64,000 bases of DNA from Truepera sp. bin119 (GTDB lineage: Bacteria > Deinococcota > Deinococci > Deinococcales > Trueperaceae). Each line of letters begins with the position of its first letter. Position 1 is the stretch's first letter. Shown here in pieces: positions 10,156 through 28,157 of the stretch. The stretch is taken from the NCBI GenBank assembly GCA_002239005.1, contig MPNL01000009.1, forward strand, positions 1 to 64,000, in the 5' to 3' direction. Below the pieces are notes generated by a model, which saw nothing but the letters and a program-made list of their open reading frames with translations, had not been told where the DNA came from and ran no database searches. The position numbers and the translations under genes are program-made.

Positions 10156-11391
10156 TTACCACCAGCGCACCTGACACCGATTTAGCCGTTCCACCCCATC
10201 GACGGTAACCCGCCACATGTCCTCCCAGCAGGCGGTTCCGAACTCCTTGCGGACCAGCATCGGTTCGAAGCAGAACACCATATTCTCCTCGAATTGGGCG
10301 GGGTTGCCAGGCGCGATGGAGGGGAGGTCGTGGGTGGCGCAACCGATGCCGTGACCCCGGAAGTAGAGGTACTCCTCATACCCGGCACTCCTAGCCATGT
10401 CGAGTCCGACCTCGGCGATGGACGCGACCCTGGTTCCGGGGCGGATCATGTCTGTGCAGGCCTCGACAATGTCTATCTGAGCCTCCATGAAGCGGAGCTG
10501 CTCGTCGTTAGGCGTGCCGCAGACGCACTGTCTGGAGCAGTCACTGTAGTAGCCCATGTAGCGGCCGCCGACATCGATGTAGACGAGATCGCCATCCCGG
10601 ACGGTGTAGTCGGTAGGTGCCATGTGCTTAAAGCCCGACCGGGGACCGGCAGTCACAGCGATAGGGAACGACAGGTGTTCTGCCTGCTCCCTGAACAGGG
10701 CGAATACCGCTTCGGCCGCTATGTCAAATTCGGTCACACCTGGGCGGACCGCGTCCATGGCGGCCTGCATGGCTGCGTCGGCGAGGTGGGCCGCCTTGCG
10801 GAGGGCCTCGATCTCTAGTGGACTCTTGAGCTTTCGCATCTCAATCATAACTGCGTCGGCGGGAACCAGTTCACATCTGGGGAAGGTGGATTCGAGGAAG
10901 GCAGTGAACTCTGGGGTCGCTGCCACCAGCCCCAGCCTCCCACCCTCGAGGCCGGCTTCCAGCAGGAAATCCTCCACATGATCGAAGATGCTTACGGCTT
11001 CGGCACTACCCGTTACGGTCTTTGGCGAGGCGGCGCAGCGGACATTCTCCAGCCACGCGTCCTGGATGCCGGAGTGCATCGGCTCGCCGTGCATCACCCC
11101 GTCAGTGGTGAGGCCCGCTTCTCCGTTGGCCGGTACGACGACGACCTGCCGTCCCCCAGGGTAGAAGACCTCGAAGTTCGTGAGGTAGCGGATATTGCCG
11201 TTGTCCGAAGGGCTGCCCATAACCACCATGGCATCAAGGTTCCATGCAGCCATCAGCTGGCGCAGCCGTGCGAGGCGTCGATGGTACTCCTCCACTGGGA
11301 ACGGCAAGTTCATCCATGGCCACCTCTCTTCGTAGCTATAACCGACCCTTCCCCAGCCGTAAGGCATCTCCGGACGTCCACCTGCACCCAT
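10156..11391 (-). CDS. M24-family metallohydrolase (creatinase/prolidase fold), first of two in the operon
   Basis: A 411-residue 'pita-bread' enzyme. The N-terminal creatinase-like domain (~30-185) contains GNIRYLTNFEVFYPGGRQVV. The C-terminal catalytic domain carries all five metal ligands of metal-dependent M24 enzymes: Asp273 (YIDVGG), Asp284 (YYSDCSRQ), His347 (FRGHGIG), Glu376 (CFEPML) and Glu390 (CWEDMW). The family includes Xaa-Pro peptidases, ectoine hydrolase and the metal-free creatinases; complete ligands favour a dinuclear metal amidase or peptidase. It shares the unusual N-terminal GWGRV segment with the paralogue at 14656-15882. It is the last gene of the minus-strand operon. 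AGGAGGT lies 6 nt before the ATG. Specificity is unknown. Confidence 0.8.
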   Translation of the reverse strand: MGAGGRPEMPYGWGRVGYSYEERWPWMNLPFPVEEYHRRLARLRQLMAAWNLDAMVVMGSPSDNGNIRYLTNFEVFYPGGRQVVVVPANGEAGLTTDGVMHGEPMHSGIQDAWLENVRCAASPKTVTGSAEAVSIFDHVEDFLLEAGLEGGRLGLVAATPEFTAFLESTFPRCELVPADAVMIEMRKLKSPLEIEALRKAAHLADAAMQAAMDAVRPGVTEFDIAAEAVFALFREQAEHLSFPIAVTAGPRSGFKHMAPTDYTVRDGDLVYIDVGGRYMGYYSDCSRQCVCGTPNDEQLRFMEAQIDIVEACTDMIRPGTRVASIAEVGLDMARSAGYEEYLYFRGHGIGCATHDLPSIAPGNPAQFEENMVFCFEPMLVRKEFGTACWEDMWRVTVDGVERLNRCQVRWW

Positions 11392-11537
11392 GTCGTTACC
11401 TCCTAAAGCCCTTCAACCCCTCGTCGTGTCGTGCCGCCAGCCGCAGATAAGTGCCTCTGCAGGGCAGGTGCAAGGGTGACTTGTGTTCGCTCCTCGGTCG
11501 AACCCGCCTGGTTCCCGGTCACAGTTCATAAGGCGAC

Positions 11538-12596
11538 CTATAACACCTTTAGCCCGTGACCCGTGACCGGTACGACTACCGTCTCTTTGTCACCGATTAC
11601 ACCTTCGCTGTGGAGTGCTTCGAGGCCAGCCAGCGCCACTGCCGAGGTCGGTTCCATCAGAACTCCCCCCCGTGCAGATCGCCGCCACCAGTGCAGGATG
11701 GAGTTCTCCTCAGCGGCTAGGGCACATCCCCCGGTTGCGCCGAGGGCGGTCAGGATCTCGGGTAGCCGAAGTGGTTCGGGAATGCGGATCCCCTCCGCCA
11801 AGGTCGCTACCGTCTTGGCTAGAGCGGTGCTCTTCGAGACGGCCTGCACCACGGGCTGGCAAGCACGCGTCTGCACCACATGGCAGCGGGGGGGTGCGAT
11901 GTTCCGGTCTCGCGCTGCGGACAGAAAGCCGGATACGGCACCCAGATAGAGGCTGCCGTGCCCTACCGGAAAGACAATATGGTCGGGCAGATTCCCCGAA
12001 AACTGCTCTATCACCTCATACGCGAATGAGCGTGTTCCCAACGCGAAGCAGGGATGCCAGTAATGGCTGGCGTAAAAGGATTCGTTCGCTGCCGCCTGGG
12101 CAGCACGAGCGGCGTCTTCTCGATCTCCGGGAACGCGCACTAAGTCGGCACCGTACGCTTCGATCTGCCGGAGCTTTCCCTCGGACGTTTCAGCAGGCAC
12201 AAATACCCGGCAACCGATGCCTGCTGCCGATGCGAAGGCTGCAATGGCTGCCGCCGCGTTCCCGGAGGAGTCGCAGATGACCTCAGGGGCGCTGCACTTC
12301 ACCGCTAGCCCCACCAGTACCGCCATGCCCCGATCCTTAAATGAGCCGCTAGGATTAGCGCCCTCGAGCTTCAGGTGGAGGCGGCCAGCTCCCTCGAACG
12401 GTGCCGGGATGAGCGGGGTCTCTCCCTGCCCAAGTTCGGGGATCTGCAGTGCCGCGAATCGCGAGTGTTCGGGGTTGTCGAGGAGACGGAAGGGCTCTCC
12501 ACAATCGCAGCGCCAAGCGGTGAGTGACCGGGCTGGTTCGCCACACACCCGACAGACAAGTCCGGCACTCACGCTGTTCGGGTCGGCTTCAGACAT
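11538..12596 (-). CDS. Threonine-synthase-like PLP-dependent enzyme (fold type II)
   Basis: A 352-residue enzyme. It begins with a small Cys cluster (Cys15-x2-Cys18, Cys30-x-Cys32) like the zinc-ribbon-type N-terminus of many threonine synthases. NPSGSFKDRGM follows, with Lys87 as the PLP Schiff-base lysine, then CDSSGNAAAAIAAFA as the phosphate-binding Asn/Gly loop. The family catalyses beta/gamma-elimination and replacement on amino acids. There are no threonine-pathway neighbours (no thrB or hom); instead it sits among amide hydrolases and an ornithine-cyclodeaminase-like enzyme. That context suggests a catabolic lyase or dehydratase, reminiscent of the EutB/EutC pair of hydroxyectoine use (inference). 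I chose the ATG at 12596; it overlaps the stop of the upstream small gene, implying translational coupling. Confidence 0.75.
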   Translation of the reverse strand: MSEADPNSVSAGLVCRVCGEPARSLTAWRCDCGEPFRLLDNPEHSRFAALQIPELGQGETPLIPAPFEGAGRLHLKLEGANPSGSFKDRGMAVLVGLAVKCSAPEVICDSSGNAAAAIAAFASAAGIGCRVFVPAETSEGKLRQIEAYGADLVRVPGDREDAARAAQAAANESFYASHYWHPCFALGTRSFAYEVIEQFSGNLPDHIVFPVGHGSLYLGAVSGFLSAARDRNIAPPRCHVVQTRACQPVVQAVSKSTALAKTVATLAEGIRIPEPLRLPEILTALGATGGCALAAEENSILHWWRRSARGGVLMEPTSAVALAGLEALHSEGVIGDKETVVVPVTGHGLKVL

Positions 12597-12930
12597 TGCC
12601 GTCTCCCAGTTCCACAACCTCGGTTTCATACAGCGCCTTGAGCAGGTCGCGTTCGAACCTGCTCAGTTGCCCGGTTTGGCGGGCGCGGATCGCTGCAAAC
12701 TCGGAGTCACTCTCAGCGGTACGGCTCAGGAGAGTTCGCTCGGCGAGGTCAAGGTAATGGCAGATCCATACGACATCGGGTACGTCGGGTGCCTTGGCCT
12801 CCGCCGGCGTTAGGGTGACGCCAGTTGGGAGACCCATGGCAGCGAGACGCCTCGAGGCTTCGAGACGGGTCTCCAGGACCGCCTCGGCCATTCCGGGGCG
12901 GGCGTAGTAGCGTTGGATCACCGTTACCAT
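12589..12930 (-). CDS. Small protein, possibly NIPSNAP/dimeric alpha-beta barrel type
   Basis: A 113-residue soluble protein beginning MVTVIQRYYARPGMAEAVLE. The N-terminal strand followed by a helix, and the RRLAAMGLPTG and WICHYLDLAERTLL segments, resemble NIPSNAP-like or related ferredoxin-fold (ABM) proteins, but the match is weak. It lies 10 nt after the cyclodeaminase-like gene and its stop overlaps the start of the threonine-synthase-like gene, so it is clearly part of the operon. It may be an accessory or small catalytic subunit of the pathway. No catalytic residues can be assigned. Confidence 0.55.
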   Translation of the reverse strand: MVTVIQRYYARPGMAEAVLETRLEASRRLAAMGLPTGVTLTPAEAKAPDVPDVVWICHYLDLAERTLLSRTAESDSEFAAIRARQTGQLSRFERDLLKALYETEVVELGDGNV

Positions 12931-12940
12931 GAGGTGCTGT

Positions 12941-13987
12941 TCACCACATCTCCTCTGGGGTCACGTCTCCGAGGCGTCGGCGGAGGCCGAGGCCCAGTTC
13001 GGCGGCGGCTTCGAGGGCCGCGGCCGCTGCAGCGAGGTCCTGCAAGGCGATGCCAGTACTGTCGAACAGTGTAAGGGTGTCGTCATCCTCGCGGCCCGGC
13101 AGGTCGCCGGCACAGATTGCACCGAGCTCGCCATGGATAGTCTTGCGGGAGAGGTGGCCGAGGCGGTGGGCGTGCTGGCACTCACCGATGGTGATGGCCT
13201 GTTTCCAGTCATCGACTACTACGCGGGCACCGATAAACAGTTCCGGATCGAGTTCCTGCTTGCCACGAGTGTCGGCGCCTATGGCGCTGATATGGGCACC
13301 GGGCGCAACCCAGGAGTTCTCGACCAGCGGCTCCCATGAGGGTGTGGCGGTGACGATGATGTCTGCCTCGGCGACGGCCTCTCGGATCGTGGGTGCGCGC
13401 TTCACTTCGAGACCGAGGTTTGCGACGCTGATCCGGTAGCGGTCAAAACTCTCTGGACTGCGGGCGAATACCTTCACCATGGCGAGGTCGGGACGGGCCC
13501 AAGCAAGGGCGTGCGTCTGCGCGACCGCTTGGGAACCAGCGCCGATCAGGGCTGCCAAGCTGCTCTTGGTAGGTGCCAGTGCCTGGGCAGCTAGGGCCCC
13601 TGCAGCCGCAGTACGGATTACAGTAATTACATTGGCGTCTAGAACAGCCCGCAGTTCTCCGGTAGCGGGATTAAATAGCAGCATGGCCGCTTGGTGGGTG
13701 GGCAGGCTCCGCTCGCGGTTCTCAGCCCAAAAGCCGCCCGCCTTGAGACCGAGCGCATCGGCTTCGAGCAGGTAGCCGGACTTCACCCCGAAGATGCCGC
13801 CGCCGGTCGGAAGCTGCTCCCGGACCACAGGATAGGTGAGACCTTCTTTGCGGTGATGAGCAACGAGCGCTTCAGCTACCGCTTCGATGCAGCGCTCGAG
13901 CGGTAAAGCCTGGAGCACCTCACGTCCGGACAGCACCACGACATCGGACGCGCCTCCGTAGCCGGATTCAGGTGGTTGCCGCGACAC
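12941..13987 (-). CDS. Ornithine cyclodeaminase / mu-crystallin family NAD(P)-dependent enzyme
   Basis: A 348-residue protein. It shows the family substrate site Lys69 in IFGVKSGY and Lys82 in GLKAGGFW, the Rossmann motif GAGSQAVAQ (149-157), and the C-terminal signature DSTGIALQDLAAA. Members include ornithine cyclodeaminase, alanine dehydrogenase, ketimine reductases and EutC of hydroxyectoine catabolism; they oxidise an amino group or reduce a cyclic imine. The start is a GTG at 13987 that overlaps the 3' end of the isochorismatase-like gene by 20 nt. In this operon it would act on the amino acid or imine released by the hydrolases (inference). The exact substrate is unknown. Confidence 0.85.
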   Translation of the reverse strand: MSRQPPESGYGGASDVVVLSGREVLQALPLERCIEAVAEALVAHHRKEGLTYPVVREQLPTGGGIFGVKSGYLLEADALGLKAGGFWAENRERSLPTHQAAMLLFNPATGELRAVLDANVITVIRTAAAGALAAQALAPTKSSLAALIGAGSQAVAQTHALAWARPDLAMVKVFARSPESFDRYRISVANLGLEVKRAPTIREAVAEADIIVTATPSWEPLVENSWVAPGAHISAIGADTRGKQELDPELFIGARVVVDDWKQAITIGECQHAHRLGHLSRKTIHGELGAICAGDLPGREDDDTLTLFDSTGIALQDLAAAAAALEAAAELGLGLRRRLGDVTPEEMW

Positions 13988-14666
13988 GGTTCGTTTCGAT
14001 GTAGGTTAGGACATCGGTGAGGGAGACAACGTCAGCGTACTTGGCATCCATCTCAAACAGGGCCATCTCATGGCTCAGGGGGAGGCGGTCGAAGGTTCCC
14101 TCGCGCACCACCGCTACTCGCAGGTTGTAGGAGAAGGCGTCGAGCACGGAGGCGCGGACACACCCGCTGGTGACGCAGCCGACCACGATCAGTTGGTCGA
14201 CCCGCAGGTCGCTAAGATACGACATGAGCGGCGTGCCGAAGAATGCACTGGGTTTCTTCTTTGCGATCACAATCTCATTAGAACGCGGGCCGATCTTGTC
14301 GACGATGCGATTCGCCCGAGGCGAGGGGACCCGTCGGCCGGCATCGTTGCCGAGCTTCCAGGCCCAGGAGCCGAGATCCCAACCATCGCTGCGGTAGTCG
14401 TTGCGGGTGTAGATGATGGGGAGTCTGGCGTCGCGGGCAGCCGAGAGCAGGTGCTTGATCGCTTCGAGGGCGGGCCACGCCACCTCGCCACAGCTGGTGG
14501 GGTAGCGCTTGATGGCCTCGAGGATCGGTTCAGGCTCGTCGCCGGTGAAGCCGTAAGTTACGTCGATGATCAGCATCGCGGGGTGCCGACCGAACCCCTG
14601 ACGCTGACCCCAGCCGCTGGCCTCGAGGATGGCGATCTCGTCGGGTGTCAGGCGATCAGGCCACAC
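13968..14666 (-). CDS. Isochorismatase-fold cysteine amidohydrolase (N-carbamoylsarcosine amidase-like)
   Basis: A 232-residue enzyme with the catalytic triad of isochorismatase-like hydrolases: Asp35 in MLIIDVTYGF, a Lys in IAKKKPSAFFGT (~136-138), and Cys169 in VVGCVTSGCVRAS. Members include nicotinamidase, ureidoacrylate and biuret hydrolases and N-carbamoylsarcosine amidase (CSHase). The long N-terminal extension before the first strand and the GTPLMSYLSDLRVDQL region are closest, in my judgement, to the CSHase-like branch. I chose the GTG at 14666, which overlaps the stop of the upstream M24 gene. It would split a carbamoyl or amide group in the pathway (inference). Confidence 0.8.
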   Translation of the reverse strand: MWPDRLTPDEIAILEASGWGQRQGFGRHPAMLIIDVTYGFTGDEPEPILEAIKRYPTSCGEVAWPALEAIKHLLSAARDARLPIIYTRNDYRSDGWDLGSWAWKLGNDAGRRVPSPRANRIVDKIGPRSNEIVIAKKKPSAFFGTPLMSYLSDLRVDQLIVVGCVTSGCVRASVLDAFSYNLRVAVVREGTFDRLPLSHEMALFEMDAKYADVVSLTDVLTYIETNRVAATT

Positions 14667-15882
14667 AGTGGTCCCCCCAGTTCTTAGCAACTTTGTTGAG
14701 CGCCTCTGCGTGTCGGTCGGTCATGTGCAGGACATTCTCGACCACGGCCGTCCCGAAGCTCTTGCGGACCAGCATCGGCTCGAAGGCGTAGACCATACCG
14801 GGTTCAAATCCGGTGGTACTGCCTGGGAAGAAGGCCGGGGGGACGTGTGTCGAGGTGCCGATGCCGTGCCCGCGGAAATAGAAGTGGCTCCCGTAACCGA
14901 GGTCGTCGGCCAGCCGCTGACCTTCGGCGGCGAGTTCACCGATGGTTATCCCTGGCTTCATCAACTTGAAGATGGTGTCTTCTATGTACTCGGCAGCCTG
15001 AAGAAACTCGAGCTGCTCATCGCTGGCGTGGCCAGCGACGGCGCAGCGCGAGGTATCGGAGAGGTAACCGGCAACGCTACAGCCCATGTCTAGGAAGACC
15101 AAGTCACCATTGCCGAGCGGGTGCGGGCGGGGGAGGGCGTGCTTGAACCCGCTCAGCGGCCCACCCACTACGGAGAGGAAGATAAGATCCTCAGCGCCAG
15201 CGGCATACATCGCCTTCGCTGCCTCGCCCGCCACCACCGTCTCGGGCACCCCGGGCCTGCAGGCGTCCAGCGCGGCGCGGATGCCCGCGTCGGCGGCCAG
15301 TGCTGAGCGGCGCAGCAGTTCGACTTCGTGTGGCGACTTAAAGGTCTGCAGCGTCTCGATTTCGGCGGTGACGTCGATGAGTTCGCAGCCAGGAAGCCGC
15401 TCGCCGAGGCGACGTTCGAGCTCGGCTATGGCACCGTGTCCGGAGATGCCGACGCGCTCGGTTGCGCCCCAATCCTTGAGGAGGACTGTGAGTTCGTCCC
15501 ACAGACCGCCGGATCTGCCGCCGGTGCGGGGGCTCATGATGGCACGGATGTCCCGGAACCAGGTCATCCAGAAGCCTGAATGCATCGGCTCGCCGTGCAT
15601 GACGGAGTTGCTGATTAGTACGGGCTCATCGTTGCTCTGAGGGACGGCGATCAGCGCGTGGCCGCCGAACAGGACTTCGAAATTCGAGAGGTAGCGGATC
15701 GTCCCCTTGTCGGCGGCGTCGCCTACCACCACCACCACGTCTACCTCGTGCTTCGCTGCGGCGTGTCGAACGCCGTCGATCCGGCGCCGCGCTTCGCTTT
15801 CAGGGTAAGGCAGATGCAGCCATGGGCTACGATCTTCCCACTCCCAGGGGACCCTGCCCCAGCCGTGTCCCATGCCAGTCAT
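14656..15882 (-). CDS. M24-family metallohydrolase (creatinase/prolidase fold), second paralogue
   Basis: A 408-residue paralogue of the gene at 10156-11391. The N-terminal MTGMGHGWGRVPWEWEDRSP parallels PYGWGRVGYSYEERWPW there. The metal ligands are complete: Asp265 (FLDMG), Asp276 (YLSDTSR), His339 (FRGHGIG), Glu368 (AFEPML) and Glu382 (VVENVL). The ATG at 15882 follows AAAGGAGG by four bases; the upstream open frame is spurious. It lies just downstream of the importer permease and overlaps the isochorismatase-like gene by 11 nt. It may be a peptidase, an ectoine-hydrolase-like amidase or a creatinase-like enzyme; the family alone does not decide. The two paralogues may have split substrates or form a heteromer. 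Confidence 0.82.
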   Translation of the reverse strand: MTGMGHGWGRVPWEWEDRSPWLHLPYPESEARRRIDGVRHAAAKHEVDVVVVVGDAADKGTIRYLSNFEVLFGGHALIAVPQSNDEPVLISNSVMHGEPMHSGFWMTWFRDIRAIMSPRTGGRSGGLWDELTVLLKDWGATERVGISGHGAIAELERRLGERLPGCELIDVTAEIETLQTFKSPHEVELLRRSALAADAGIRAALDACRPGVPETVVAGEAAKAMYAAGAEDLIFLSVVGGPLSGFKHALPRPHPLGNGDLVFLDMGCSVAGYLSDTSRCAVAGHASDEQLEFLQAAEYIEDTIFKLMKPGITIGELAAEGQRLADDLGYGSHFYFRGHGIGTSTHVPPAFFPGSTTGFEPGMVYAFEPMLVRKSFGTAVVENVLHMTDRHAEALNKVAKNWGDHCVA

Positions 15883-15968
15883 GATGCCTCCTTTGCTGAA
15901 GTGTCGTGCCTGTATCGTCGGTAGAGCTCGGTCGGAAGATGTTTTCCCGGTCGGGGGCGACGTGGGCC

Positions 15969-16865
15969 TCACCTGCGGATGCGGGGGTCGAGTACATCGC
16001 GAAGGCCGTCGCCCAGGATGTTGAAACCCAGTACGGTGATGAAGATAGCGATACCCGGATAGATCGAGAGGTGCGGTGAGGTAAACAGGTAGGTCCTGCC
16101 TGTGCTTAGCATCGCCCCCCACTCCGGCGTCGGCGGCTCGGCCCCGAGGCCGAGGAAGCTTAGAGCCGCGGCGGAGAGGATGCCGGTCGCGACCCGGAAG
16201 GTGGACTGCACGATGAGTGGCGCTGCAGTGTTAGGAAGGATGTGGCGGACGATGACGCGGCCGTCGTTCGAGCCCAGGGATTGGGTGGCGGTCACGTAGT
16301 CGGCCTCCCGCAGCGACAGGACCACGCCGCGCGTGAGGCGCGCGAATGCCGGGGCGGAGGCGAGGCCGACCGCGATCATCACGTTGAATAGTCCCGTCCC
16401 GAGCGTGGCCACCACGATCAGTGCCAGCAGGATTTGTGGGAAGGCGAGCATCAGGTCGACGAGACGCATGATGGGGCCGTCGGCCCAGCGGTAGTAGCCA
16501 GCGATGGCACCAGCGGGGACTCCGAGCACGAACGAGATGATGACCACCGTCGCCCCCACTAGGAGTGAGTAGCGTGTGCCGAGCAGGATCCGGCTGAACT
16601 GGTCGCGTCCGAACTCATCGGTGCCAAGCAGGTGTCCGTCGGCTCCCGGAGGGAGCATCCGGTTGCGGAGATCTTGCTCGAACGGATCGAAAGGGGTAAG
16701 GGCGGGTGCGAGCACTGCGATAGCCAGTTCGGTCACGAGAATGATCGCCCCGATGAGCCCGAGGCGATTGCGGAGCAGCCTGCCGAACCAGGTCCGCTGG
16801 AGAGCCCGGCGAGCGGGGGCTGCCACATCCGAGCGTTCCGGGGAAACGGTGTCACCGGGAAGCAT
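15969..16865 (-). CDS. Peptide-type ABC transporter permease (DppC/OppC family)
   Basis: A 298-residue integral membrane protein with the DppC-type N-terminal cap helix (LLRNRLGLIGAIILVTELAI) and the TDEFGRDQFSRILLGTRYSL segment. The cytoplasmic EAA loop, which contacts the ATPase, reads READYVTATQSLGSNDGRVI. Six TM segments are expected. It forms the membrane channel together with the DppB-like protein at 16867. GAGGT lies 6 nt before the ATG. No ATPase (DppD/DppF) gene is in the operon, so the energising subunits must come from elsewhere. Confidence 0.9.
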   Translation of the reverse strand: MLPGDTVSPERSDVAAPARRALQRTWFGRLLRNRLGLIGAIILVTELAIAVLAPALTPFDPFEQDLRNRMLPPGADGHLLGTDEFGRDQFSRILLGTRYSLLVGATVVIISFVLGVPAGAIAGYYRWADGPIMRLVDLMLAFPQILLALIVVATLGTGLFNVMIAVGLASAPAFARLTRGVVLSLREADYVTATQSLGSNDGRVIVRHILPNTAAPLIVQSTFRVATGILSAAALSFLGLGAEPPTPEWGAMLSTGRTYLFTSPHLSIYPGIAIFITVLGFNILGDGLRDVLDPRIRR

Positions 16866-16866
16866 A

Positions 16867-17784
16867 CTAGTACCTCAGTCTCGGATCGAGTAGGGCATAG
16901 CAGACGTCGACCACTAAATTGGCGGCGGCGACGTTGACGGCTAGTACCAGGATGCTGACTTGGATGACGGGGTAGTCGCGTGACAGGATCGAATCGACCA
17001 CCAGCCGACCCAGCCCGTTAATGTTAAACACCGCCTCGATCACGACCGAGCCTCCAAGGAGGTAGCCGAAGCTGAGACCGGCGATGGTGATGACGGGGAT
17101 GAACGCGTTGCGCAGGGCATGCTTGAACACCACTCGGTTGTGTGTAAGACCCTTCGCACGGGCTGAGCGGATGTAGTCTAGGCCCAGGGTCTCGACCAAG
17201 CTGGCTCGGGTCATGCGGGCGATGAATGCCATCGAGAATACCGAGAGCGCGAGGGCGGGTAGCACGTAGTAGCGTGGGCCTGACAGGCCCGAGGTTGGGA
17301 ACCAGCCGAGTTGGACCGAGAAATAGTAGATCAGGAGTAGCCCCAGCCAAAAGCCGGGGATGGAGATGCCCGCTTGGCTAGCGAGCATGGTGAGCAGATC
17401 CCAGGCGCTGTTGCGGGTGCTGGCCGCAATCATGCCCGCTAGGGTTCCCAATGTCAGGGCGATCGCCATCGCGGCGAATGCCAGGCTGATGGTTGCAGGG
17501 TAGCGCCGTGAGATCATCTCAGCTACGGGGCGGCGCGTGGCGTACGAGGTTCCCAAGTCGAATGTCACGAGCTTGCGCAAGAATGTAGCGTACTGCACCG
17601 GCAGGGGGCGGTTCAGACCGAGATCCTCCCTGATCTCCGCGATATCCTCCTGAGTGGCGAACTGACCTCCGATGATGGCTGCCGGATCTCCCGGCAGGAT
17701 CTGAAGGATCAGAAACACAACCACGCTCATCCCCAGGAGCAATGGGATAAACGCGAGGAGGCGACGTAGTAGGAACAGGGCCAA
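16867..17784 (-). CDS. Peptide-type ABC transporter permease (DppB/OppB family)
   Basis: A 305-residue permease. The N-terminus MALFLLRRLLAFIPLLLGMS is typical of DppB. The family signature ILPGDPAAIIGGQ follows, then the LGTSYATRRPVAEMISRRYP segment and the EAA loop DYIRSARAKGLTHNRVVFKH. Six TM segments. The start appears to be a TTG at 17784 with AGAGGGTGA upstream. The stop precedes the DppC-like ATG by 1 nt, so the two are translated together. They import the ligand of the binding protein at 17855-19375. Confidence 0.9.
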   Translation of the reverse strand: MALFLLRRLLAFIPLLLGMSVVVFLILQILPGDPAAIIGGQFATQEDIAEIREDLGLNRPLPVQYATFLRKLVTFDLGTSYATRRPVAEMISRRYPATISLAFAAMAIALTLGTLAGMIAASTRNSAWDLLTMLASQAGISIPGFWLGLLLIYYFSVQLGWFPTSGLSGPRYYVLPALALSVFSMAFIARMTRASLVETLGLDYIRSARAKGLTHNRVVFKHALRNAFIPVITIAGLSFGYLLGGSVVIEAVFNINGLGRLVVDSILSRDYPVIQVSILVLAVNVAAANLVVDVCYALLDPRLRY

Positions 17785-17813
17785 GCCGGCTCACCCTCTG
17801 ATCTACCGGAATT

Positions 17814-17841
17814 CCTGGTGGAGCCTTCAGGCTCCACCAGG
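17814..17841 (-). repeat. Perfect 12-bp hairpin between binding-protein and permease genes
   Basis: CCTGGTGGAGCC and GGCTCCACCAGG flank a TTCA loop. It lies in the ~70-nt gap after the binding-protein gene. No T-tract follows in the direction of transcription, so it is more likely an mRNA 3' stabiliser or attenuator. Such a structure would allow more binding protein than permease to be made. Confidence 0.55.
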
Positions 17842-17854
17842 CGGAGAGGCAACC

Positions 17855-19375
17855 TCAGTTGCCAATAGTGACGTTGCGAAGGTCGAACTTAGCAGGGTGG
17901 TGGATGTAGCCCTGCACGCTGGCGTTGACGGCCTGTACCTGTTTACGGGCGCGGACCATCAGGCGCGGTGCCTCTTCGGTAAGGCGGGCGACGATCTCTT
18001 TGATGAGTTCGCGTCGCACGTCGGCATCGAGCTCATTGCGCTGCTGGGCAATGAGGGCGTCGATCTCGGCGTTCGAGTAGAGGCTACGGTTGCGGCTGCC
18101 TATGGAGGAACTCTCGAATTCCGGCAGGATGCGGTCGGCGTCGCCGAAGGCGTAGGTGCCGACCACCATCAACTCGTGCTCACCGGCGGCGGTGGCCGAC
18201 AGGAACGTTCCCCAATCGAGGGTACGGATACTTACGTTCACCCCGATGTCGGCTAACTGGCCCTGCACCGCCTCAGCGATGCGGGCGTGCTCGGGCCGGT
18301 CTGCGATCAGGAACTCGATATCGAACCCGTCAGAGAAACCAGCTTCGGCAAGCAGTTCACGCGCCCGCTCCGGATCGTACGGGTAGGGAGAGGCTCCCAT
18401 GGTCTCCGGATCGAAACCCCAGACTCCGGGGGCGAGTGCGACGCCGTAGCGGGTCCCGGTGTTCTCGAGCACAGTCTCGAGGATGAGGTCGAGGTCGATA
18501 CCATAGGCGAGTGCCTGACGGACAGTAGCGCTATCTAGCGGGGGTTTCTGGGTGTTGAACCAGAGCATGTCGGCCAAGTCCGACGGGCCCTCTACCAGGA
18601 CGGTGTCATCGCGCATACCGAGCAGCGGGATCTGACTCGACTCGACGAAGGTCAGCACGTCGACCTCGCCCGTCATGTAGGAGGCGAGGCGGGTGTTGTC
18701 CTCGGGAACGTAGAGGAACTCGGCGCGCTTCACAGCGGGCACCCCGCCCCAGTAGTCGTCTACAGCTTCGACCACTGTGAGGTTGCGTGCCTCGTGAGAG
18801 ACTACACGGTAGGGGCCTGTTCCAACAGGGGCAGAGTTGAAGTCGTCGCCGAGCACCTCGACCGCAGTCGGACTGACGATGAAGGGAATGTAGAAATTCA
18901 GGCCGGACAGGATGCCGGGGTAGGCCCCGTTGGTGGAGATGTCGACAGTGAGATCATCGACGACGCTGGCGCCGGCGTACCAACCGAAGTTGCTGGAGTG
19001 GAGCGACTCGGGTGCCGCCATCCGGTCGAGGTTGAACACAACCGCCTCGGCGTTGAAGGGGGTACCATCGTGGAAGGTGACGCCCTCACGGAGGTGGAAA
19101 CGCCAGGTGGTGTCATCCACGACCTCCCAGGAGGTGGCCAACATCGGTTCGTAGGCGCCGTCGGGGCTGGTGGTAACTAGGTTCTCCATAACGTTGATCA
19201 TGGCGAACCCCATAGTCGAGCTCGATTCCTGAGTGGGATCCAGGTTAAGAAGCGGAGTCCGAACTGCAAGGACCAGCGGATCCTGGGCGAGTGTGGGGGT
19301 GACGAACACCAGCAGGGCGGATACCATTACCAGAACCAGACGCAGTAGCACAGGGGGTCGGGGGGTACGCTTCAC
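17855..19375 (-). CDS. ABC transporter substrate-binding protein, family 5 (peptide/nickel type)
   Basis: A 506-residue secreted protein. It has a signal peptide (~1-30) with a basic start, a hydrophobic LRLVLVMVSALLVFV core and an Ala-x-Ala-type cleavage near TLAQ. Family-5 features follow: FAMINVMENLVTTSPDG, LATSWEVVDDTTWRFHLREG, VTFHDGTPFNAEAVVFNLDR, and a late ALAYGIDLDLI. There is no lipobox cysteine, so it is free in the periplasm. It captures peptides or peptide-like compounds for the adjacent permeases. The start is a GTG with GGAGG 6 nt upstream. Flanking amide hydrolases suggest the cargo is an N-substituted amino acid, short peptide or cyclic amide (inference). Confidence 0.88.
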   Translation of the reverse strand: MKRTPRPPVLLRLVLVMVSALLVFVTPTLAQDPLVLAVRTPLLNLDPTQESSSTMGFAMINVMENLVTTSPDGAYEPMLATSWEVVDDTTWRFHLREGVTFHDGTPFNAEAVVFNLDRMAAPESLHSSNFGWYAGASVVDDLTVDISTNGAYPGILSGLNFYIPFIVSPTAVEVLGDDFNSAPVGTGPYRVVSHEARNLTVVEAVDDYWGGVPAVKRAEFLYVPEDNTRLASYMTGEVDVLTFVESSQIPLLGMRDDTVLVEGPSDLADMLWFNTQKPPLDSATVRQALAYGIDLDLILETVLENTGTRYGVALAPGVWGFDPETMGASPYPYDPERARELLAEAGFSDGFDIEFLIADRPEHARIAEAVQGQLADIGVNVSIRTLDWGTFLSATAAGEHELMVVGTYAFGDADRILPEFESSSIGSRNRSLYSNAEIDALIAQQRNELDADVRRELIKEIVARLTEEAPRLMVRARKQVQAVNASVQGYIHHPAKFDLRNVTIGN

Positions 19376-19433
19376 AGTTGACCTCCTCAGGTCAGAGCGA
19401 GAGTTCGGAGAGGGCGACTATCTGGAACGGATC

Positions 19434-20264
19434 TCACTTCATGGTGGCCTCCTCACGGTCTTTGGCAACGCGTTCGGACCAGATCTCCAGGAACTCGACG
19501 AGGGCCTCAACGAATAGCTCCTGATTGCACTTCCCTAGCTCGGCGGTCGCGTCGCTCGGGTCGAGCAGAGAAATGACCCCTGTATCGGAGAGTTCGTCAG
19601 TAGGAGGTAGGTCCGTGGTGATGAAGCTGAGGAGCTCGGGCCGCTCGCGCACCTCTTTCAAGAGCTGGCGCTGTCCTCCACGCAGGGCGAGTTCGGGCCG
19701 GCGAGCCCGCTCCAGCTTCACTAGGTGGGGGCGGCTAGCGAGAACGCTGGAGGTCTCCCCAACCCCCGCATGGATGTCGAGCTTGTCGATGTTCTCGGAG
19801 AGGTAGATCTTGCGGAGTTGCGCGATACCGAACAGCATGGCTACGGCGTCAGTGCGCTTGGTGATTAGGTGGGCGGCATAGGCCATTGCGACTTCGTTCC
19901 CGCCATGACCGTTTACTAGCGCGATGCGCCGGAAGCCGTGGTGCGCCAGGCACTCCGCCGTCTCGAGCAAGACCGTTACGAACGTCTCTTGGCTCAGTGA
20001 AAGGGTGCCTGGGAAGCCGAGGTGATGCGCCGACACGCCAGCGAACAGTACCGGAGCGACCACTCCCCGGGCGCGCGGCGCTGCCGACCGGGCGAGATCG
20101 AATGCGCCGAAGGTGTCGGTGCCGAGCGGCAGGTGCGGACCGTGTTGCTCGGTCGCCCCGACCGGGATGATAGCGAGATCGGTATGCTCCAGGGCACTTC
20201 TCACCTCCTCCCAGGTCATGTCAGGTAAGAACCAGGGGTCCTTGACGGGGTCGGTGCTGTTCAT
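19434..20264 (-). CDS. Creatininase-family amidohydrolase
   Basis: A 276-residue protein with the creatininase hallmarks: IIPVGATEQHGPHLPLGTD, supplying Glu39, His41 and Asp50, and ALVNGHGGNE with His120. These residues bind two metal ions. The family opens cyclic amides (creatinine to creatine) or hydrolyses related amides such as formamidopyrimidines and mycofactocin precursors. No creatinine-specific residue set can be confirmed by eye. The ATG at 20264 overlaps the stop of the M20 gene (ATGA) and is preceded by GGGGGAGCAGC. Its place beside a peptide importer and M24 and CSHase-like enzymes makes a ring-opening or deacylating step likely (inference). Confidence 0.83.
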   Translation of the reverse strand: MNSTDPVKDPWFLPDMTWEEVRSALEHTDLAIIPVGATEQHGPHLPLGTDTFGAFDLARSAAPRARGVVAPVLFAGVSAHHLGFPGTLSLSQETFVTVLLETAECLAHHGFRRIALVNGHGGNEVAMAYAAHLITKRTDAVAMLFGIAQLRKIYLSENIDKLDIHAGVGETSSVLASRPHLVKLERARRPELALRGGQRQLLKEVRERPELLSFITTDLPPTDELSDTGVISLLDPSDATAELGKCNQELFVEALVEFLEIWSERVAKDREEATMK

Positions 20265-21472
20265 GCTGCTCCCCCCTTTTTGGCTAGACACCAGCGTAGG
20301 ATCACGTTGGCGAGGATGCGTATGGCATCTAAGTACTGGCTGATCTCGAGTTGCTCGTTGGCAGCGTGCCCCTGCGACATATCACCCGGGCCGAAGTTAA
20401 CGGTGGGAATGTCGAGGCTGCGCAGTAGCCGCATGTCGGTACCGGCTAGCAAGCCCCGAGGTTCTCCGCGATAACCGTACCGCCGACTCTCCTCTCCGAG
20501 GAGGTGGACTAAGGGATGACCGGTGGGTGTCTGACTCGCCTCAAAGGCGAGCCAGCTCCAGCGCCACTCCGGCGGGTGCTTGTGAAGCCAGGGATCAGCT
20601 TGTGTGACCTCAGCTACCACCCGTTCAACTCTGGCGCTCATGCTGGCAAGCGTGTCGGGTGGAACCCAACCCACCACTCCCTCGATTTCGCAGGCGGCCG
20701 CTACCGAGGCGAAGGACGAGCCGCCGGCGATGCGACCTAGGTTGAAAACGTAAGGGGTATCGAGTTCTGGCCACAAGTGGGCGTCGGCCCGACAGGCAAG
20801 GTCTCGGTGCAGCGCTTCGAGCGCCTCGACGAAGCGCATGGCTAGGTTTACTGCATTCACGCCTCGGTAGGCCTCGCCGGCGTGTGCGCCTAGGCCTCGG
20901 ACCGCGAGCTGGAACGATCGGGCACCGCGGGTAGCTGTGCTCGGCTGGAGTTCGGTTGGTTCACCAATGATAGCGGCGTCCGGCAGAGGTTTCCCGAGCC
21001 GCTCCTGATCCCGCAGCCAAGCCTCGGTGCCGCCGCCGCTAGCCTCTTCATCGACGACGCTGGTGAGGGTAATGGGCCCGAGCGCATCGCCAGCCAGTTC
21101 ACGTGCAATCCAGACAGCCTGCAGCATGGCTAGGAGCGATCCCTTGGCGTCGGCTGCTCCACGCCCTCTCACATACCCGTCGGCGACGCGGGCCTCGAAG
21201 GGTGCATGGTTCCAGTTGGGCTCATCGGCAGCCACCACATCACAGTGGCCGTTTAAGAGCAGGCTGCGACAACTGAGATTTCCCGGGAGGGCGACCTCGA
21301 CATTCGGGCGCGCTTCGAGATGACTCTCCTGAAGTGTTGCCGGTAGGCCTTTAGCCCTACATAATTTTTGGAAGAAGTGTTGAAATCGTGCCTCGCCCAC
21401 CTGATCGTCGAGACGCTCGACCCGCGCTGGGTTGATGCTGGCGAGCGATACCGCCTCCGCGAGATCGTTCAC
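20261..21472 (-). CDS. M20-family metallopeptidase (ArgE/DapE-like deacylase)
   Basis: The M20 core is complete. SLLLNGHCDVV holds the first metal His and Asp, DGYVRGRGAADAKGSLLAML the bridging Asp, SVVDEEASGGGTEAW the catalytic Glu pair, and IIGEPTELQPS and NFGPGDMSQGHAANEQLEIS the last ligands. The insert between contains a dimerisation/lid domain. Members remove N-acyl or N-terminal groups from amino acids (acetylornithine, succinyl-diaminopimelate) or act as dipeptidases. The N-terminus is uncertain: the frame is open to 21646, but only this GTG is a credible start outside the upstream gene. Its stop overlaps the creatininase start. Confidence 0.82.
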   Translation of the reverse strand: MNDLAEAVSLASINPARVERLDDQVGEARFQHFFQKLCRAKGLPATLQESHLEARPNVEVALPGNLSCRSLLLNGHCDVVAADEPNWNHAPFEARVADGYVRGRGAADAKGSLLAMLQAVWIARELAGDALGPITLTSVVDEEASGGGTEAWLRDQERLGKPLPDAAIIGEPTELQPSTATRGARSFQLAVRGLGAHAGEAYRGVNAVNLAMRFVEALEALHRDLACRADAHLWPELDTPYVFNLGRIAGGSSFASVAAACEIEGVVGWVPPDTLASMSARVERVVAEVTQADPWLHKHPPEWRWSWLAFEASQTPTGHPLVHLLGEESRRYGYRGEPRGLLAGTDMRLLRSLDIPTVNFGPGDMSQGHAANEQLEISQYLDAIRILANVILRWCLAKKGGAA

Positions 21473-21557
21473 GAACTGCTCTTGACGCTCTGTGACTAGG
21501 GCATTGCTCCATTCGTTCCAGGTGTGGTCCGGGATCTCAGCCTGGGATCTCTGTATC

Positions 21558-22952
21558 TCAGGTGATATGGCGAACCACCTCTCCCTTAATCCCCTGCTCT
21601 TGTGCGAAGCTGATCCCAGCGTCGGTGGTGAGAAAGCTCCCACCACTTCCTGTCAGTGCGCCTTCGGCGTAGACCATGTTGCCAGAGGCAACCGTGTAGG
21701 CTATCGAGCCGCGCTCTAGGTCGAGAATTGTGAGGTCGGCCACGCTTCCGGGCCGCAACGTACCGCGGTCAGCGAGATGCAGCATGCGTGCGGGGGCGGT
21801 TGACGCCTTCTCAACGAACTCCGAGAGAGACAGGGCTCCGTAACGCACCAGCGCTAATCCCTGCTGCACCGTGCTGTTTCGTGGGATGGAGCCACCGTCG
21901 GTCGCCAGGGCAGAGACGATGAAATCCCCCTCGTGCCGGGCTGTAGCCAGCAGTGAGGTTACCTCCGGTGGATTCACTGGGAAGCTCACCACCAGCTCAC
22001 CACCGGCTTGGCGATAGTGCTCGATTCCAACGGTCCCTGCCACGAGTTCGGTGCCGGCTAACCCCTCAATGTTGACCTGGGCGTAGCCCATCTCTATCGC
22101 CCGCTCCAAGCCTTCCCTTGTCTCGGGATGACCTCCCAATCGGAGGCAGGTGCGAGTCACGTGGCTCACAGGAACGCCGTCACTGCAGTGGCCCGAGGTG
22201 CCGTTCCAGCGCGACAGATAGCTCTCACTCGCTATCCCCTTGCCCGCCAGGGCACGCAGGGCCCGGCGAGCCTCCTTGATCGGGTCGTTGAGCAGTTGAC
22301 CGCGGCAGTAGCTGTTGACATGCGCGATCTGGACCGGATTGTCGCCTATCAGTTCGATTGCCTCCTCCAGGCCGCGAATATCGCTGCCAGTCTCGGTAGA
22401 GCCACAATGGATAGCAAGGTAGCAGCCGCGTTCACGTGTTAGATCTACGGTTACGCGTATCGCTTCGGGCACGAGTGGATAGTGCCCACCGAGGAGCTTC
22501 ACCCCGAGGGCACCCTGCTTCAGTGCTCTCTCAATCTCGTGCTCTAGCTCAATATGGCTGGGGTTTGAGTTGGAGAGGTTGCGTCCTGGGATGAGTGGTA
22601 GTAGGTAGCCTATGTGAATGCCGCAGCCCCGTTCGCGCAGGCCGCGAGCGAGGTCGGGGCCATCCCCTGCCAGTTCTAGACAGGCGGTCACTCCGGCCCG
22701 GGCAACCATCGCTATTCCGTAGGTCTTGCCGAACGGTATTGAAAGGTGAACGTGTGGATCGATGAGGCCAGGAACAACCACTAGCCCCTCAACTGAGAGG
22801 TGTCGCCGGGCACGGATAAGCTGGCCACTAGGTTCGACCGCTTCGATGTAGCCATGGCGGATGCCTACGTCGACGATCTCGTCGACCCCAGTTGCCGGAT
22901 CGACCACGCGGCCATCGGTTACCACCAAGTCGAGGTCGGCCAAGTTGGACAT
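21558..22952 (-). CDS. Amidohydrolase superfamily, dihydroorotase/hydantoinase/D-aminoacylase-like
   Basis: A 464-residue TIM-barrel metal hydrolase. The metal-site residues are all visible: His67-x-His69 (LIDPHVHL), Lys152 as the likely carboxylated bridging lysine (GVKLLGGHYP), His182 (AIHCGS), His211 (IAHVNS) and the catalytic Asp352 (ALATDGGS). The C-terminal RPGSVADLTILDLERG strand region is typical. The family includes dihydropyrimidinase/hydantoinase, allantoinase and N-acyl-D-amino-acid deacylases. It would open a ring or deacylate early in the pathway (inference). Its ATG shares one base with the stop of the dehydrogenase gene (TGATG), showing tight coupling. Confidence 0.85.
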   Translation of the reverse strand: MSNLADLDLVVTDGRVVDPATGVDEIVDVGIRHGYIEAVEPSGQLIRARRHLSVEGLVVVPGLIDPHVHLSIPFGKTYGIAMVARAGVTACLELAGDGPDLARGLRERGCGIHIGYLLPLIPGRNLSNSNPSHIELEHEIERALKQGALGVKLLGGHYPLVPEAIRVTVDLTRERGCYLAIHCGSTETGSDIRGLEEAIELIGDNPVQIAHVNSYCRGQLLNDPIKEARRALRALAGKGIASESYLSRWNGTSGHCSDGVPVSHVTRTCLRLGGHPETREGLERAIEMGYAQVNIEGLAGTELVAGTVGIEHYRQAGGELVVSFPVNPPEVTSLLATARHEGDFIVSALATDGGSIPRNSTVQQGLALVRYGALSLSEFVEKASTAPARMLHLADRGTLRPGSVADLTILDLERGSIAYTVASGNMVYAEGALTGSGGSFLTTDAGISFAQEQGIKGEVVRHIT

Positions 22953-23992
22953 CAGCTAGCTAGAAGCGGGTGTGTTACGCCGAGCTCGATCGCGACCGAG
23001 GCGATCTCTTCCCAAAGGGCTGGTGTGATCTCGACACCTTCCTGATCGTTCTTCTCGCGTCGGCGGACGCTGCGCTCGCCAGGTAGCAGTACCTCCCTCG
23101 AGCCGCCCTCAGGGGCACTGGCGCGCATGGCCTCTACCAGCGTCTCGAGCCCGCCGAGGAAGGCTTCGTACTCAATGAAAGCGTCGATGGAAAAGGTGCC
23201 GAAGAAGCTGCTACTCTCCTCGGGAGGATAGCCGCCCAGGACACTCGTGAGGATCTCTACGACGAGCGCGAGGCCCGAGCCCTTGTAACCGCCGAGGGGC
23301 GCGAGCGTACCGTGGGGTGGCAGCGCGCGGTGGGGGTCAGTGGTGGGGGAGCCGTCGGTATCGAAGGCCCAACCTTCGGGGATGGTTTCATTGCGCTTCT
23401 GGGCCATAAGGATGGCTCCCCGGGCGATCTGGGTGGTTGCAATGTCGTAGACAATCGGATTGGCGTCGCGCCTGGGTACCCCTACAGCTAGCGGATTGGT
23501 ACAGAACACGGGCGAGACACCTCCCCACGGCGCCTGGGTTGCAAAGCTCTGCGCACCTGCCGCCGCTGCGATACCGATGACGCCCTGTTGCGCAGCGTGC
23601 TCGACGAAGTAACCGAGCCGCCCGAGGTGGCTTGTGTTTAGCATCACCGCGAAGCACGCGCCGCTCTCTCGTGCCTTTTCCGTGCATAGGTCGATTGCCC
23701 TCTTACCCATCACGTAGCCCCAGCCGTAGTGCGCATCGAGCCGGAGGGCACTCGCCGATTCCATGAGCACCTCCATTTCGACATTAGAGCGGGTCCTCCC
23801 CGCCGCTGCGGCCTTGGCGTAGACGGGAAGCCGGACCAGCCCCTGAGAGTCGATGCCCCGGAATTCAGCGTCGACTACCGCTTCCGCGACCACTGCGGCC
23901 TCCTCGCCAGTGGCACCCGCCCGCTCGAGGATAGCGTGGCTCAGGTCGGTAAGCTGGTAGCGGCTGAAGCGGGTGGCGGCTGGTGTTGACAT
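22952..23992 (-). CDS. Ldh2-family NAD(P)-dependent oxidoreductase (malate/L-lactate dehydrogenase type)
   Basis: A 346-residue member of the non-Rossmann LDH2/MDH2 family. Recognisable segments are DAEFRGIDSQGLVRLPVY, the catalytic-His region LNTSHLGRLGYFVEHA, GVSPVFCTNPLAVGVPR, YDIATTQIARG and LGGYKGSGLALVVEIL. Relatives are ureidoglycolate dehydrogenase (AllD), diketogulonate reductase and delta1-piperideine-2-carboxylate/pyrroline-2-carboxylate reductase. Alongside a cyclodeaminase-like enzyme, a role in reducing a cyclic imine or oxidising a 2-hydroxy acid fits (inference). AAGGGGG lies 6 nt before the ATG. It is the first enzyme gene after the regulator. Confidence 0.85.
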   Translation of the reverse strand: MSTPAATRFSRYQLTDLSHAILERAGATGEEAAVVAEAVVDAEFRGIDSQGLVRLPVYAKAAAAGRTRSNVEMEVLMESASALRLDAHYGWGYVMGKRAIDLCTEKARESGACFAVMLNTSHLGRLGYFVEHAAQQGVIGIAAAAGAQSFATQAPWGGVSPVFCTNPLAVGVPRRDANPIVYDIATTQIARGAILMAQKRNETIPEGWAFDTDGSPTTDPHRALPPHGTLAPLGGYKGSGLALVVEILTSVLGGYPPEESSSFFGTFSIDAFIEYEAFLGGLETLVEAMRASAPEGGSREVLLPGERSVRRREKNDQEGVEITPALWEEIASVAIELGVTHPLLAS

Positions 23993-24040
23993 CTCAATCC
24001 CCCTTGCTACCAACTTGGTTAGTCCTGGTGTCCATACTGG

Positions 24041-24746
24041 CTAGATTTCTCTCGGGAGGGTGATGATGTATTCATGGAGGTCCGAACGGATTTCGGCTTC
24101 GAAGTACTCGATTGGGCGGTCGTGGTCAGTATACGAGGTGCGCCGGACGATCAGGAGAGGGAGGCTATCGGGTATGGTCAACACCTGCTGTTCCTCGGCG
24201 GTCGGCGCGCGGGCGGAGATGCGGTCGGTGCCGTAGATAATGAAGTTCTTGCGATCTTTCTCAATAAGCGTGTGAATGCTACTGGTAAAGTCGGCTTCGG
24301 TGCCGACCCATTCGGGCACGTAAGAACGTGGTGATCGAGAAAGGACGGGTCGCAATCTTGCGGGTCCGTTGCACGCGTAGCACACGCTCGCCAGCAGGAA
24401 GGCGCAGGTGCTCACGGATGGCGCAGCTCGGTTCCCGGAGGTCAACATCGACCGACTCAATATCTAGTGGAAGGCCAGCGTCTCTGAGGTGTTCGGTAAG
24501 CCGTTTTAAGGTGGGCTTATGCATTTCGGGTCTGTTGCGCACCACCACCGTGCCGACTCCCGGAGTGGCTTTGACAAGACCCTCGTCCTTAAGTGAGCGA
24601 ATGGCTCTCCTGACAGTGTCTCGGCTGACATTGAACATATCCGAAAGGGTATTCTCTGTCGGCAACTTGTAACCAACCGGTCGTCGGCCCGAGAGGATCT
24701 GGGCGTTCAACGTGTCCTCAACCTGCTGGTAGAGCGGTCTTCGCAC
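24041..24746 (-). pseudogene. GntR/HutC-family transcriptional regulator, frameshifted
   Basis: The 5' part (24746-~24325) encodes a winged-HTH GntR domain: PLYQQVEDTLNAQILSGRRP, then LPTENTLSDMFNVSRDTVRR. The start of a UTRA effector domain follows (RVQRTRKIATRPFSITT). The rest of that domain, SYVPEWVGTEADFTSSIHTL to YIITLPREI, is in another frame. The switch lies around 24323-24330; one extra base in ACGTTCTTACG explains it. HutC-type regulators usually repress a neighbouring catabolic operon until its metabolite binds. This gene heads the operon below it and lies behind the promoter at 24792-24821. Either the repressor is dead or the base is a sequencing error. Confidence 0.75.
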
Positions 24747-24791: not shown

Positions 24792-24821
24792 ATTTTAGGC
24801 GAAGCCCCATCTGGAAGTCAA
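24792..24821 (-). promoter_or_regulatory. Promoter of the GntR gene and catabolic operon
   Basis: On the minus strand TTGACT (24821-24816), an 18-bp spacer and TAAAAT (24797-24792) form a near-consensus sigma-70 promoter. The GTG start of gntR follows at 24746 behind GAGGAG. I see no obvious palindromic GntR operator. Confidence 0.55.
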
Positions 24822-27138: not shown

Positions 27139-27176
27139 AACGCGAGTCCGGGGGATACCCGGCTAGGGAGACGATT

Positions 27177-28157
27177 ATGGCTTTGGAAACACGCCGTATC
27201 GGGACGACCGATATCGAGGTTAGCATCCTCGGCTTTGGAGGTGCACCTTTAGGCTCGGAAGCCTTGAGCGACCCTCAGGCAATCGCCATTGCCGAGCGGG
27301 CCTACCGGGGTGGAGTCCGGTATTTCGATACCGCGCCGCTGTACGGACATGGGGACAGCGAACGGCGTATCGGGGCTGTGCTGTCGCAGCGTCCCCGGGA
27401 CGAGTTCATCCTCTCCACTAAAGTCGGTCGCCTGCTGGCCCCAGCAGGAAACGGCCAGCCGCCCTCCTCAGCGCCCCTCATCCCCCATTATGACTATAGT
27501 TACCCTGCGGCCCGCCAGTCGCTTGAGGAAAGCCTCGTGCGGTTGGGGTTGGGTCGCGTCGATATTGCGCTGTGTCACGACATCGATACCTGGACCCATG
27601 GCGACGCGCAACCGGACATCTTCGAGGTTGCAGCCAGGGGCGCCCTGCCAGCCCTGAACGACCTGCGCAGCGAGGGCGTGATCCGGGCGTTTGGGCTCGG
27701 TGTGAACGAGTCGCGGGTCTGCAATCAGGTCTTGGACCTCTTCGACGTCGACTGCTTTCTGCTGGCGGGTCGTTTCACACTGTTGGAACAGGATCCGCTC
27801 GATGACCTGCTGCCCCGTTGCCTTGATCGTGATGTCTCGATCATCGTCGGCGGGCCCTACAACTCGGGCATGTTGGCGACCGACCGACGCGAACGGGCGA
27901 TGTACGACTACCGGCCGGTAGACGACGAGCGCTGGGCACGGGCCCAGGAGATCCGGCGGATCTGCGACGAACATGGCACCGACATCCGGGCCGCAGCCTT
28001 GCAGTATCCGTTGCAACACCCTGCGGTGGCGTCGGTCATCCCGGGTAGTGCGTCGCTTGAAGAGGTCGAGGCAAATTTCGTCTTGATGGAGGCTCCGGTC
28101 CCTGCCGGGCTCTGGTTGGATCTTGACGCTGCCGGGTTGGTGCGGTCCCTGATGTAG
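27177..28157 (+). CDS. Aldo/keto reductase (aldose dehydrogenase type)
   Basis: A 326-residue (beta/alpha)8 barrel NAD(P)H oxidoreductase. The catalytic tetrad is visible: Asp51 and Tyr56 in YFDTAPLYGHGDSE, Lys82 in LSTKVGRLL and the His in DIALCHDID. The long TKVGRLL region and SYPAARQSLEESLVRLGLGR resemble the branch containing D-threo-aldose/L-fucose dehydrogenase and pyridoxal 4-dehydrogenase. It is co-directional with the TPP enzyme and a GGGAGA ribosome site precedes the ATG. It probably oxidises or reduces the aldehyde/aldose handled by that enzyme (inference). Confidence 0.85.
   Translation: MALETRRIGTTDIEVSILGFGGAPLGSEALSDPQAIAIAERAYRGGVRYFDTAPLYGHGDSERRIGAVLSQRPRDEFILSTKVGRLLAPAGNGQPPSSAPLIPHYDYSYPAARQSLEESLVRLGLGRVDIALCHDIDTWTHGDAQPDIFEVAARGALPALNDLRSEGVIRAFGLGVNESRVCNQVLDLFDVDCFLLAGRFTLLEQDPLDDLLPRCLDRDVSIIVGGPYNSGMLATDRRERAMYDYRPVDDERWARAQEIRRICDEHGTDIRAAALQYPLQHPAVASVIPGSASLEEVEANFVLMEAPVPAGLWLDLDAAGLVRSLM

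Follow-up and report, generated by a model that had tools for sequence, protein, structure and literature searches.

The first 64,000 nucleotides of contig MPNL01000009.1 from Truepera sp. bin119 (Trueperaceae, Deinococcota), referred to below as the window, contain a cluster of 14 co-directional genes, which was delimited from the list of open reading frames (ORFs) and from Pfam matches and runs on the minus strand from position 24746 to position 10156, the gene of a GntR/UTRA regulator coming first. The first-pass annotation of this DNA counted 13 genes, which our recount raises to 14, and the families that it named between 10156 and 24746 are all present on the minus strand. In order of transcription, and preceded by a candidate promoter, the features are as follows.

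24792–24821, minus: candidate promoter TTGACT-18-TAAAAT ahead of the GntR gene (10 of 12 consensus matches)
24041–24746, minus: GntR/UTRA (HutC-type) regulator gene (PF00392 and PF07702 halves; intact orthologue in the related genome G010)
22952–24013, minus: Ldh2-family NAD(P) dehydrogenase (Ldh_2, PF02615, E=8e-97)
21558–22952, minus: cyclic-amidohydrolase/D-aminoacylase-like binuclear metallohydrolase (Amidohydro_1, PF01979)
20261–21646, minus, true start probably near 21496: M20 ArgE/DapE-type deacylase (Peptidase_M20, PF01546/PF07687)
19434–20291, minus: creatininase-family hydrolase (Creatininase, PF02633, E=3e-64)
17855–19375, minus: oligopeptide-type solute-binding protein (SBP_bac_5, PF00496, E=9e-90)
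16867–17784, minus: DppB/OppB-type permease (BPD_transp_1, PF00528/PF19300)
15969–16865, minus: DppC/OppC-type permease (BPD_transp_1, PF00528/PF12911)
14656–16122, minus, start probably 15882: M24 metallohydrolase, M24a (Peptidase_M24, PF00557)
13968–14690, minus: isochorismatase-superfamily amidase of the CSHase/maleamate-amidase branch, CSH (Isochorismatase, PF00857)
12941–13987, minus: ornithine cyclodeaminase (OCD)/mu-crystallin-family imine reductase, BhcD-like (OCD_Mu_crystall; GLKAGGFW and IGECQHA signatures)
12589–12930, minus: small protein of 113 aa, no family assigned
11538–12629, minus: threonine-synthase-like pyridoxal phosphate (PLP) enzyme of fold type II with an N-terminal Cys-rich ribbon (PALP, PF00291)
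10156–11391, minus: second M24 metallohydrolase, M24b, a paralogue of M24a (Peptidase_M24)

Depending on the start codons chosen, the majority of neighbouring genes overlap or lie 1–86 nt apart, and the sole large gap, of 146 nt, separates the PLP enzyme from M24b. The earlier description of a tightly overlapping set transcribed in one direction is therefore accurate as to direction and for most of the junctions, but not for the one before M24b. As in an oligopeptide/dipeptide ATP-binding cassette (ABC) importer, an SBP_bac_5 protein is accompanied by two permeases, whose families point to import, whereas no ABC ATPase (DppD/DppF) was found among the cluster ORFs. The small protein has no Pfam or NCBIfam match and its structure model is uninformative (predicted local distance difference test score, pLDDT, 58).

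Conservation of the cluster and its regulator

Twelve of the genes are collinear with the window on contig C44 of G010, a genome of the same family and a different genus: those of the GntR regulator, Ldh2, the amidohydrolase, M20, the creatininase-family protein, the solute-binding protein, both permeases, M24a, CSH, OCD and the PLP enzyme. The small protein, which gave no tblastn match in G010, and M24b are absent from this copy, downstream of which lies an opposite-strand gene that reads by eye as an unrelated PLP decarboxylase. Apart from the GntR gene, the shared genes encode proteins with 67–83% amino acid identity, and codon-by-codon comparison of these eleven placed differences at 0.42–0.61 of third codon positions as against 0.07–0.20 of second positions, from which it follows that they have been maintained by selection. 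Given the collinear copy and the third-position bias, the gene grouping exceeds chance.

The genome of the window is placed in Deinococcota by its EF-Tu, whose best solved relative is the Thermus protein (741 bits); the two align with hardly a gap, whereas EF-Tu of the E. coli type is some ten residues shorter. Within a sample of 111 genomes of this phylum, as judged by EF-Tu, the amidohydrolase is present in two, close (74–75%) orthologues of M24a and CSH are confined to the same two, and no copy of the cluster was found in the remaining genomes. Scattering of the genes in relatives, which the first-pass annotation had named as an outcome that would speak against an operon, is thus not what is observed, since in the sole relative carrying them 12 of the 14 lie together, the small protein and M24b excepted. 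Housekeeping proteins of the two genomes are 60% (MiaA) and 77% (FabF) identical, and because the operon falls within about the same range no conclusion on horizontal transfer is drawn. Next to the cluster in G010 (L051, 1975–6929) are genes that by eye resemble parts of a contractile-tail (phage-tail-like) locus, a setting unlike that in the window.

A shift of one base near 24330 breaks the regulator gene of the window into an ORF with the helix-turn-helix half (24279–24746) and an ORF with the UTRA half (24041–24460), as was seen on comparing its DNA with that of the G010 copy, which is intact and encodes 236 aa (L051, 7235–7945); the two parts are 56–60% identical to it. The frameshift may be a genuine mutation or may stem from misassembly. 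As for control elements, the promoter scan was overall not above chance (4 found vs 2.7 expected), and no operator motif shared between the regions upstream of the two copies was found. Upstream of the intact G010 gene (L051, 6931–7235) there is a palindrome, ATTTGTCCGTACAAAT, and a similar sequence, TATTTGTACGTACATTT, neither of which has a counterpart upstream of the frameshifted gene.

Family membership and catalytic residues

Proteins were compared with NCBIfam equivalog models, and no cut-off was exceeded by any catalytic protein of the cluster. Catalytic residues are intact in five of the hydrolases, and the creatininase-family one keeps most of its metal ligands. In the amidohydrolase, the ligands H67, H69, K152, H182, H211 and D352 are invariant in 10 of 10 aligned relatives; because the lysine is conserved, the sequence favours a carboxylysine enzyme of the hydantoinase/dihydroorotase type rather than one of the D-aminoacylase type. 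The best folds for its structure model (pLDDT 86) are N-acyl-D-glutamate deacylase and D-aminoacylase (template modelling score 0.65–0.68), followed by allantoinase, dihydroorotase and hydantoinase. The M20 protein has the metal-site motifs of its family and comes close to the TIGR01910 model (203.5 bits, cut-off 217.6). In the CSHase-type protein the D43, K144, C177 triad is invariant and R202 is present too, which we take to be the carboxylate-binding residue of N-carbamoylsarcosine amidase; N-carbamoylsarcosine amidohydrolase is also its best solved relative (26st, 122 bits). M24a and M24b are 41% identical, have an N-terminal GWGRV block in common and both retain all five metal ligands (D-D-H-E-E). 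Creatinase has the M24 fold without metal ligands, and the two proteins are therefore metalloenzymes and not creatinases.

The top family of the OCD protein is BhcD (NF045643, 270 bits, cut-off 500; 225 bits to 6rqa), and it has GLKAGG(Y/F)W and IGECQHA in common with the BhcD iminosuccinate reductase. The PLP enzyme scores 139–213 bits with threonine synthase (ThrC) models, whose cut-offs are 167–301, and 60 bits with BhcB (cut-off 550). It retains the PLP lysine, and its alignment with 1uim places H, Y and F (HYWHPCF) at the positions of N154, S155 and R160 of the Thermus thermophilus enzyme, a pattern that recurs in G010. These three are the phosphate-binding residues of threonine synthase, which the cluster enzyme has lost. 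In the dehydrogenase of both genomes, the family motif SHG is replaced by SQG at residues 56–58 (alignment with 2x06).

A proposed catabolic route and its alternatives

The cluster is a new combination of known modules. The first-pass annotation had seen in it a mixture of creatinine, ectoine and ureide logics, but with these pathways only superfamilies are shared, the scores lying far below the curated cut-offs or the residue signatures being absent, and the likeness is one of superfamilies, not pathways. For allantoin/ureide utilisation, where the amidohydrolase and Ldh2 superfamilies recur, both cut-offs fail (allantoinase, 44 bits, cut-off 358; AllD, 185 bits, cut-off 496, every other equivalog of the Ldh2 protein being below its cut-off as well) and the motif His is replaced. 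The earlier statement that no known pathway is matched holds, both for the equivalog models and in a full-text literature search, in which no paper on the gene combination was found.

The chances seem to us about even that the cluster is an operon under regulation that serves the catabolism of an amino-acid derivative with an amide bond, whether peptide-like, N-acylated or cyclic. More tentatively, it may encode a new pathway whose substrate is a beta-substituted amino acid in the form of a cyclic or N-acylated amide: after import, up to six hydrolases would open and deprotect this compound, and a new couple of threonine-synthase-like lyase and BhcD-like imine reductase would turn the product into a common amino acid, as a counterpart of BhcB/BhcD and of the proposed EutB/EutC pair. 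The reactions are read from families and residues, whereas gene content, order, conservation and catalytic residues were observed. The compound would be taken up by the binding protein and the DppBC-type permeases, with an ATPase encoded at some other place in the genome. A cyclic or N-acyl amide would be opened by the binuclear amidohydrolase, the creatininase-family hydrolase or both; a carbamoyl or carboxamide group would be taken off by the isochorismatase-type amidase, and acyl or aminoacyl parts by the metallohydrolases of the M20 and M24 families. The threonine-synthase-like enzyme might then eliminate the beta-substituent of the freed amino acid, the BhcD-like reductase could convert the resulting imine into a common amino acid and the Ldh2-type enzyme may handle a hydroxy- or keto-acid fragment. 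In general terms, the importer and the many amide hydrolases support the sequence of import, amide opening and amino-acid or imine chemistry that had been suggested before.

A close precedent is the beta-hydroxyaspartate cycle, where BhcB and BhcD are a published pair of PLP lyase of fold type II and OCD-family imine reductase (PMC11166783), EutB and EutC of ectoine utilisation being a proposed, biochemically untested pair of this kind (PMC5924519). The BhcD signatures are found in the cluster's OCD protein; the cluster differs in its threonine-synthase-like PLP enzyme and in having many hydrolases in place of BhcA and BhcC (no aminotransferase or aldolase). If the proposal is right, this would be a third case of exit from beta-substituted amino acids through a PLP lyase and an OCD imine reductase. 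In the creatininase, M24, isochorismatase and amidohydrolase superfamilies, annotations are commonly guessed from superfamily names; the cluster provides a defined group of members still to be assigned that lend themselves to testing, and the identity of the substrate would explain a niche of a little-studied Deinococcota branch.

Scanning the whole collection with M24a yielded no relatives. An alignment scan with the amidohydrolase gave at least six genuine ones, and among the matches listed none carries the operon. These amidohydrolases (36–43% identity) adjoin transporters, often together with M20. On a plasmid of Sulfitobacter W027 (L063), an amidohydrolase 40% identical to that of the window lies within 10 kb of a threo-3-hydroxyaspartate ammonia-lyase (577 bits, cut-off 452), a BhcD-like OCD protein, an acetylornithine-deacetylase-type M20 protein and a tripartite ATP-independent periplasmic (TRAP) transporter; it differs from the cluster in having TRAP and not ABC genes and no annotated creatininase-family, M24 or isochorismatase gene. 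In Oceaniovalibus (L071) the amidohydrolase is found with an N-carbamoylputrescine-amidase-like protein, M20 and TRAP, and in metagenome-assembled genomes of a Rhodobacteraceae member (L068) and of Desulfosarcina (L073) it adjoins oligopeptide-type ABC genes; on an Antarctobacter plasmid a dihydroorotase-family gene is followed by a CSH homologue. These independent neighbourhoods hint that amidohydrolase, M20, OCD and PLP lyase may form a working module.

Several points weigh against the proposed route. No characterised pair is orthologous to the PLP and OCD proteins, the PLP gene of Sulfitobacter is on the opposite strand and belongs to a different subfamily, and the order of the steps is not constrained by the data. 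The role of Ldh2 is doubtful because the conserved active-site His is missing, the regulator of the window genome is frameshifted, and only two genomes hold the cluster in what is a thin sampling.

General scavenging of peptides or N-acyl amino acids, which we regard as unlikely, would need no special substrate: oligopeptide uptake would feed M20/M24 peptidases and an MftE-like peptidase, leaving OCD, PLP and Ldh2 enzymes to ordinary amino-acid interconversion. The SBP_bac_5/Dpp-type transporter, M20 and the two M24 proteins are indeed standard peptide-use genes, a second Dpp/M24 set lies on the same contig, and MftE, a peptidyl-dipeptidase, is the top equivalog of the creatininase-family protein (with scores below the MftE and IolN cut-offs). 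However, simple peptide use has no place for the isochorismatase amidase, the cyclic amidohydrolase or the BhcD-like reductase, and the rarity of the cluster (two of the 111 genomes) is unlike peptide scavenging.

A divergent ectoine/hydroxyectoine-type route (EutDE, EutBC), with M24 as an EutD/DoeA-like ring opener, M20 as deacetylase and the PLP and OCD proteins as EutB and EutC, has these families in its favour and is still decidedly improbable. Ectoine hydrolase DoeA (NF038259) is the top NCBIfam match of both M24 proteins, at 84 bits for M24a and 127 bits for M24b, but the cut-off is 575 and PepQ scores nearly the same (82–122 bits). M24b reaches 86 bits with EutD (TIGR02993, cut-off 613), the OCD protein, which is nearer to BhcD, 201.5 bits with EutC (cut-off 471.7), and the PLP enzyme 48 bits with EutB (cut-off 413). 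Two eutD genes occur in putative, non-syntenic ectoine clusters that a 2026 paper reports from other phyla (PMC13188858), whereas the cyclic amidohydrolase, creatininase-family protein and isochorismatase are foreign to the route, as Ldh2 is an addition to it.

There is a very slim chance of creatinine/N-methylhydantoin degradation by creatininase, creatinase and N-carbamoylsarcosine amidase, for which a PF02633 member, the creatinase-like M24 fold and the amidase with its solved relative would speak. PDB alignment of the creatininase-family protein indicates that E48, H50, D59, H129 and the E179 region are kept, but it reaches 105.8 bits with the creatininase equivalog TIGR04448 (cut-off 235), and Trp occurs only at 20, 27 and 271 of its 285 residues, none in the catalytic half, where creatininase has its active-site pair W154 and W174. 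The metal ligands missing from creatinase are present in both M24 proteins, and the cluster has neither ATP-dependent HyuA/HyuB nor sarcosine oxidase. Just as slim is the case for a biosynthetic amino-acid or natural-product cluster of the SbnA/SbnB kind, a PLP and OCD pair that makes 2,3-diaminopropionate, since the OCD protein has 130 bits with SbnB (cut-off 327) and the importer and six hydrolases are accompanied by no synthetase or ligase.

Neighbouring and related loci

Divergently transcribed from about 700 nt beyond the GntR gene, window positions 25459–28157 (plus strand) contain a thiamine pyrophosphate enzyme of the acetolactate-synthase superfamily, below all cut-offs shown, and a gene that by eye is aldo/keto-reductase-like. 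An ORF at 28634–29248 (plus strand), about 4 kb upstream of the operon, resembles by eye the start of a zinc-ribbon transposase. At 35747–36787 (plus strand), 11 kb from the operon, lies a proline-racemase-family gene, the best match of which is trans-3-hydroxy-L-proline dehydratase (495 bits, cut-off 550). Its product would call for an imine reductase, a role usually filled by proteins of the OCD and Ldh2 types.

Among plasmid matches, CSH homologues from rhizobial and other plasmids (up to 53% identity) were set aside, their neighbourhoods being unrelated, as were the PLP and creatininase matches, which form no syntenic set, and the M24 matches, with merely about 25–30% identity. On the same contig past the window, about 76000–86400 on the minus strand (L055, L056), an M24 protein and an SBP/DppBC set are grouped with two hydantoinase-B proteins and one that by eye is HyuA-like. 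By its genes this is a putative second amide-related import cluster, likewise with no ATPase among the ORFs seen. G010 has on contig C33 (L053, 877–6421) a second CSH homologue, 44–45% identical to that of the window, with luciferase-like monooxygenase(s), SBP_bac_5 and an OCD protein, and this set is another putative amide- or ring-cleavage cluster.

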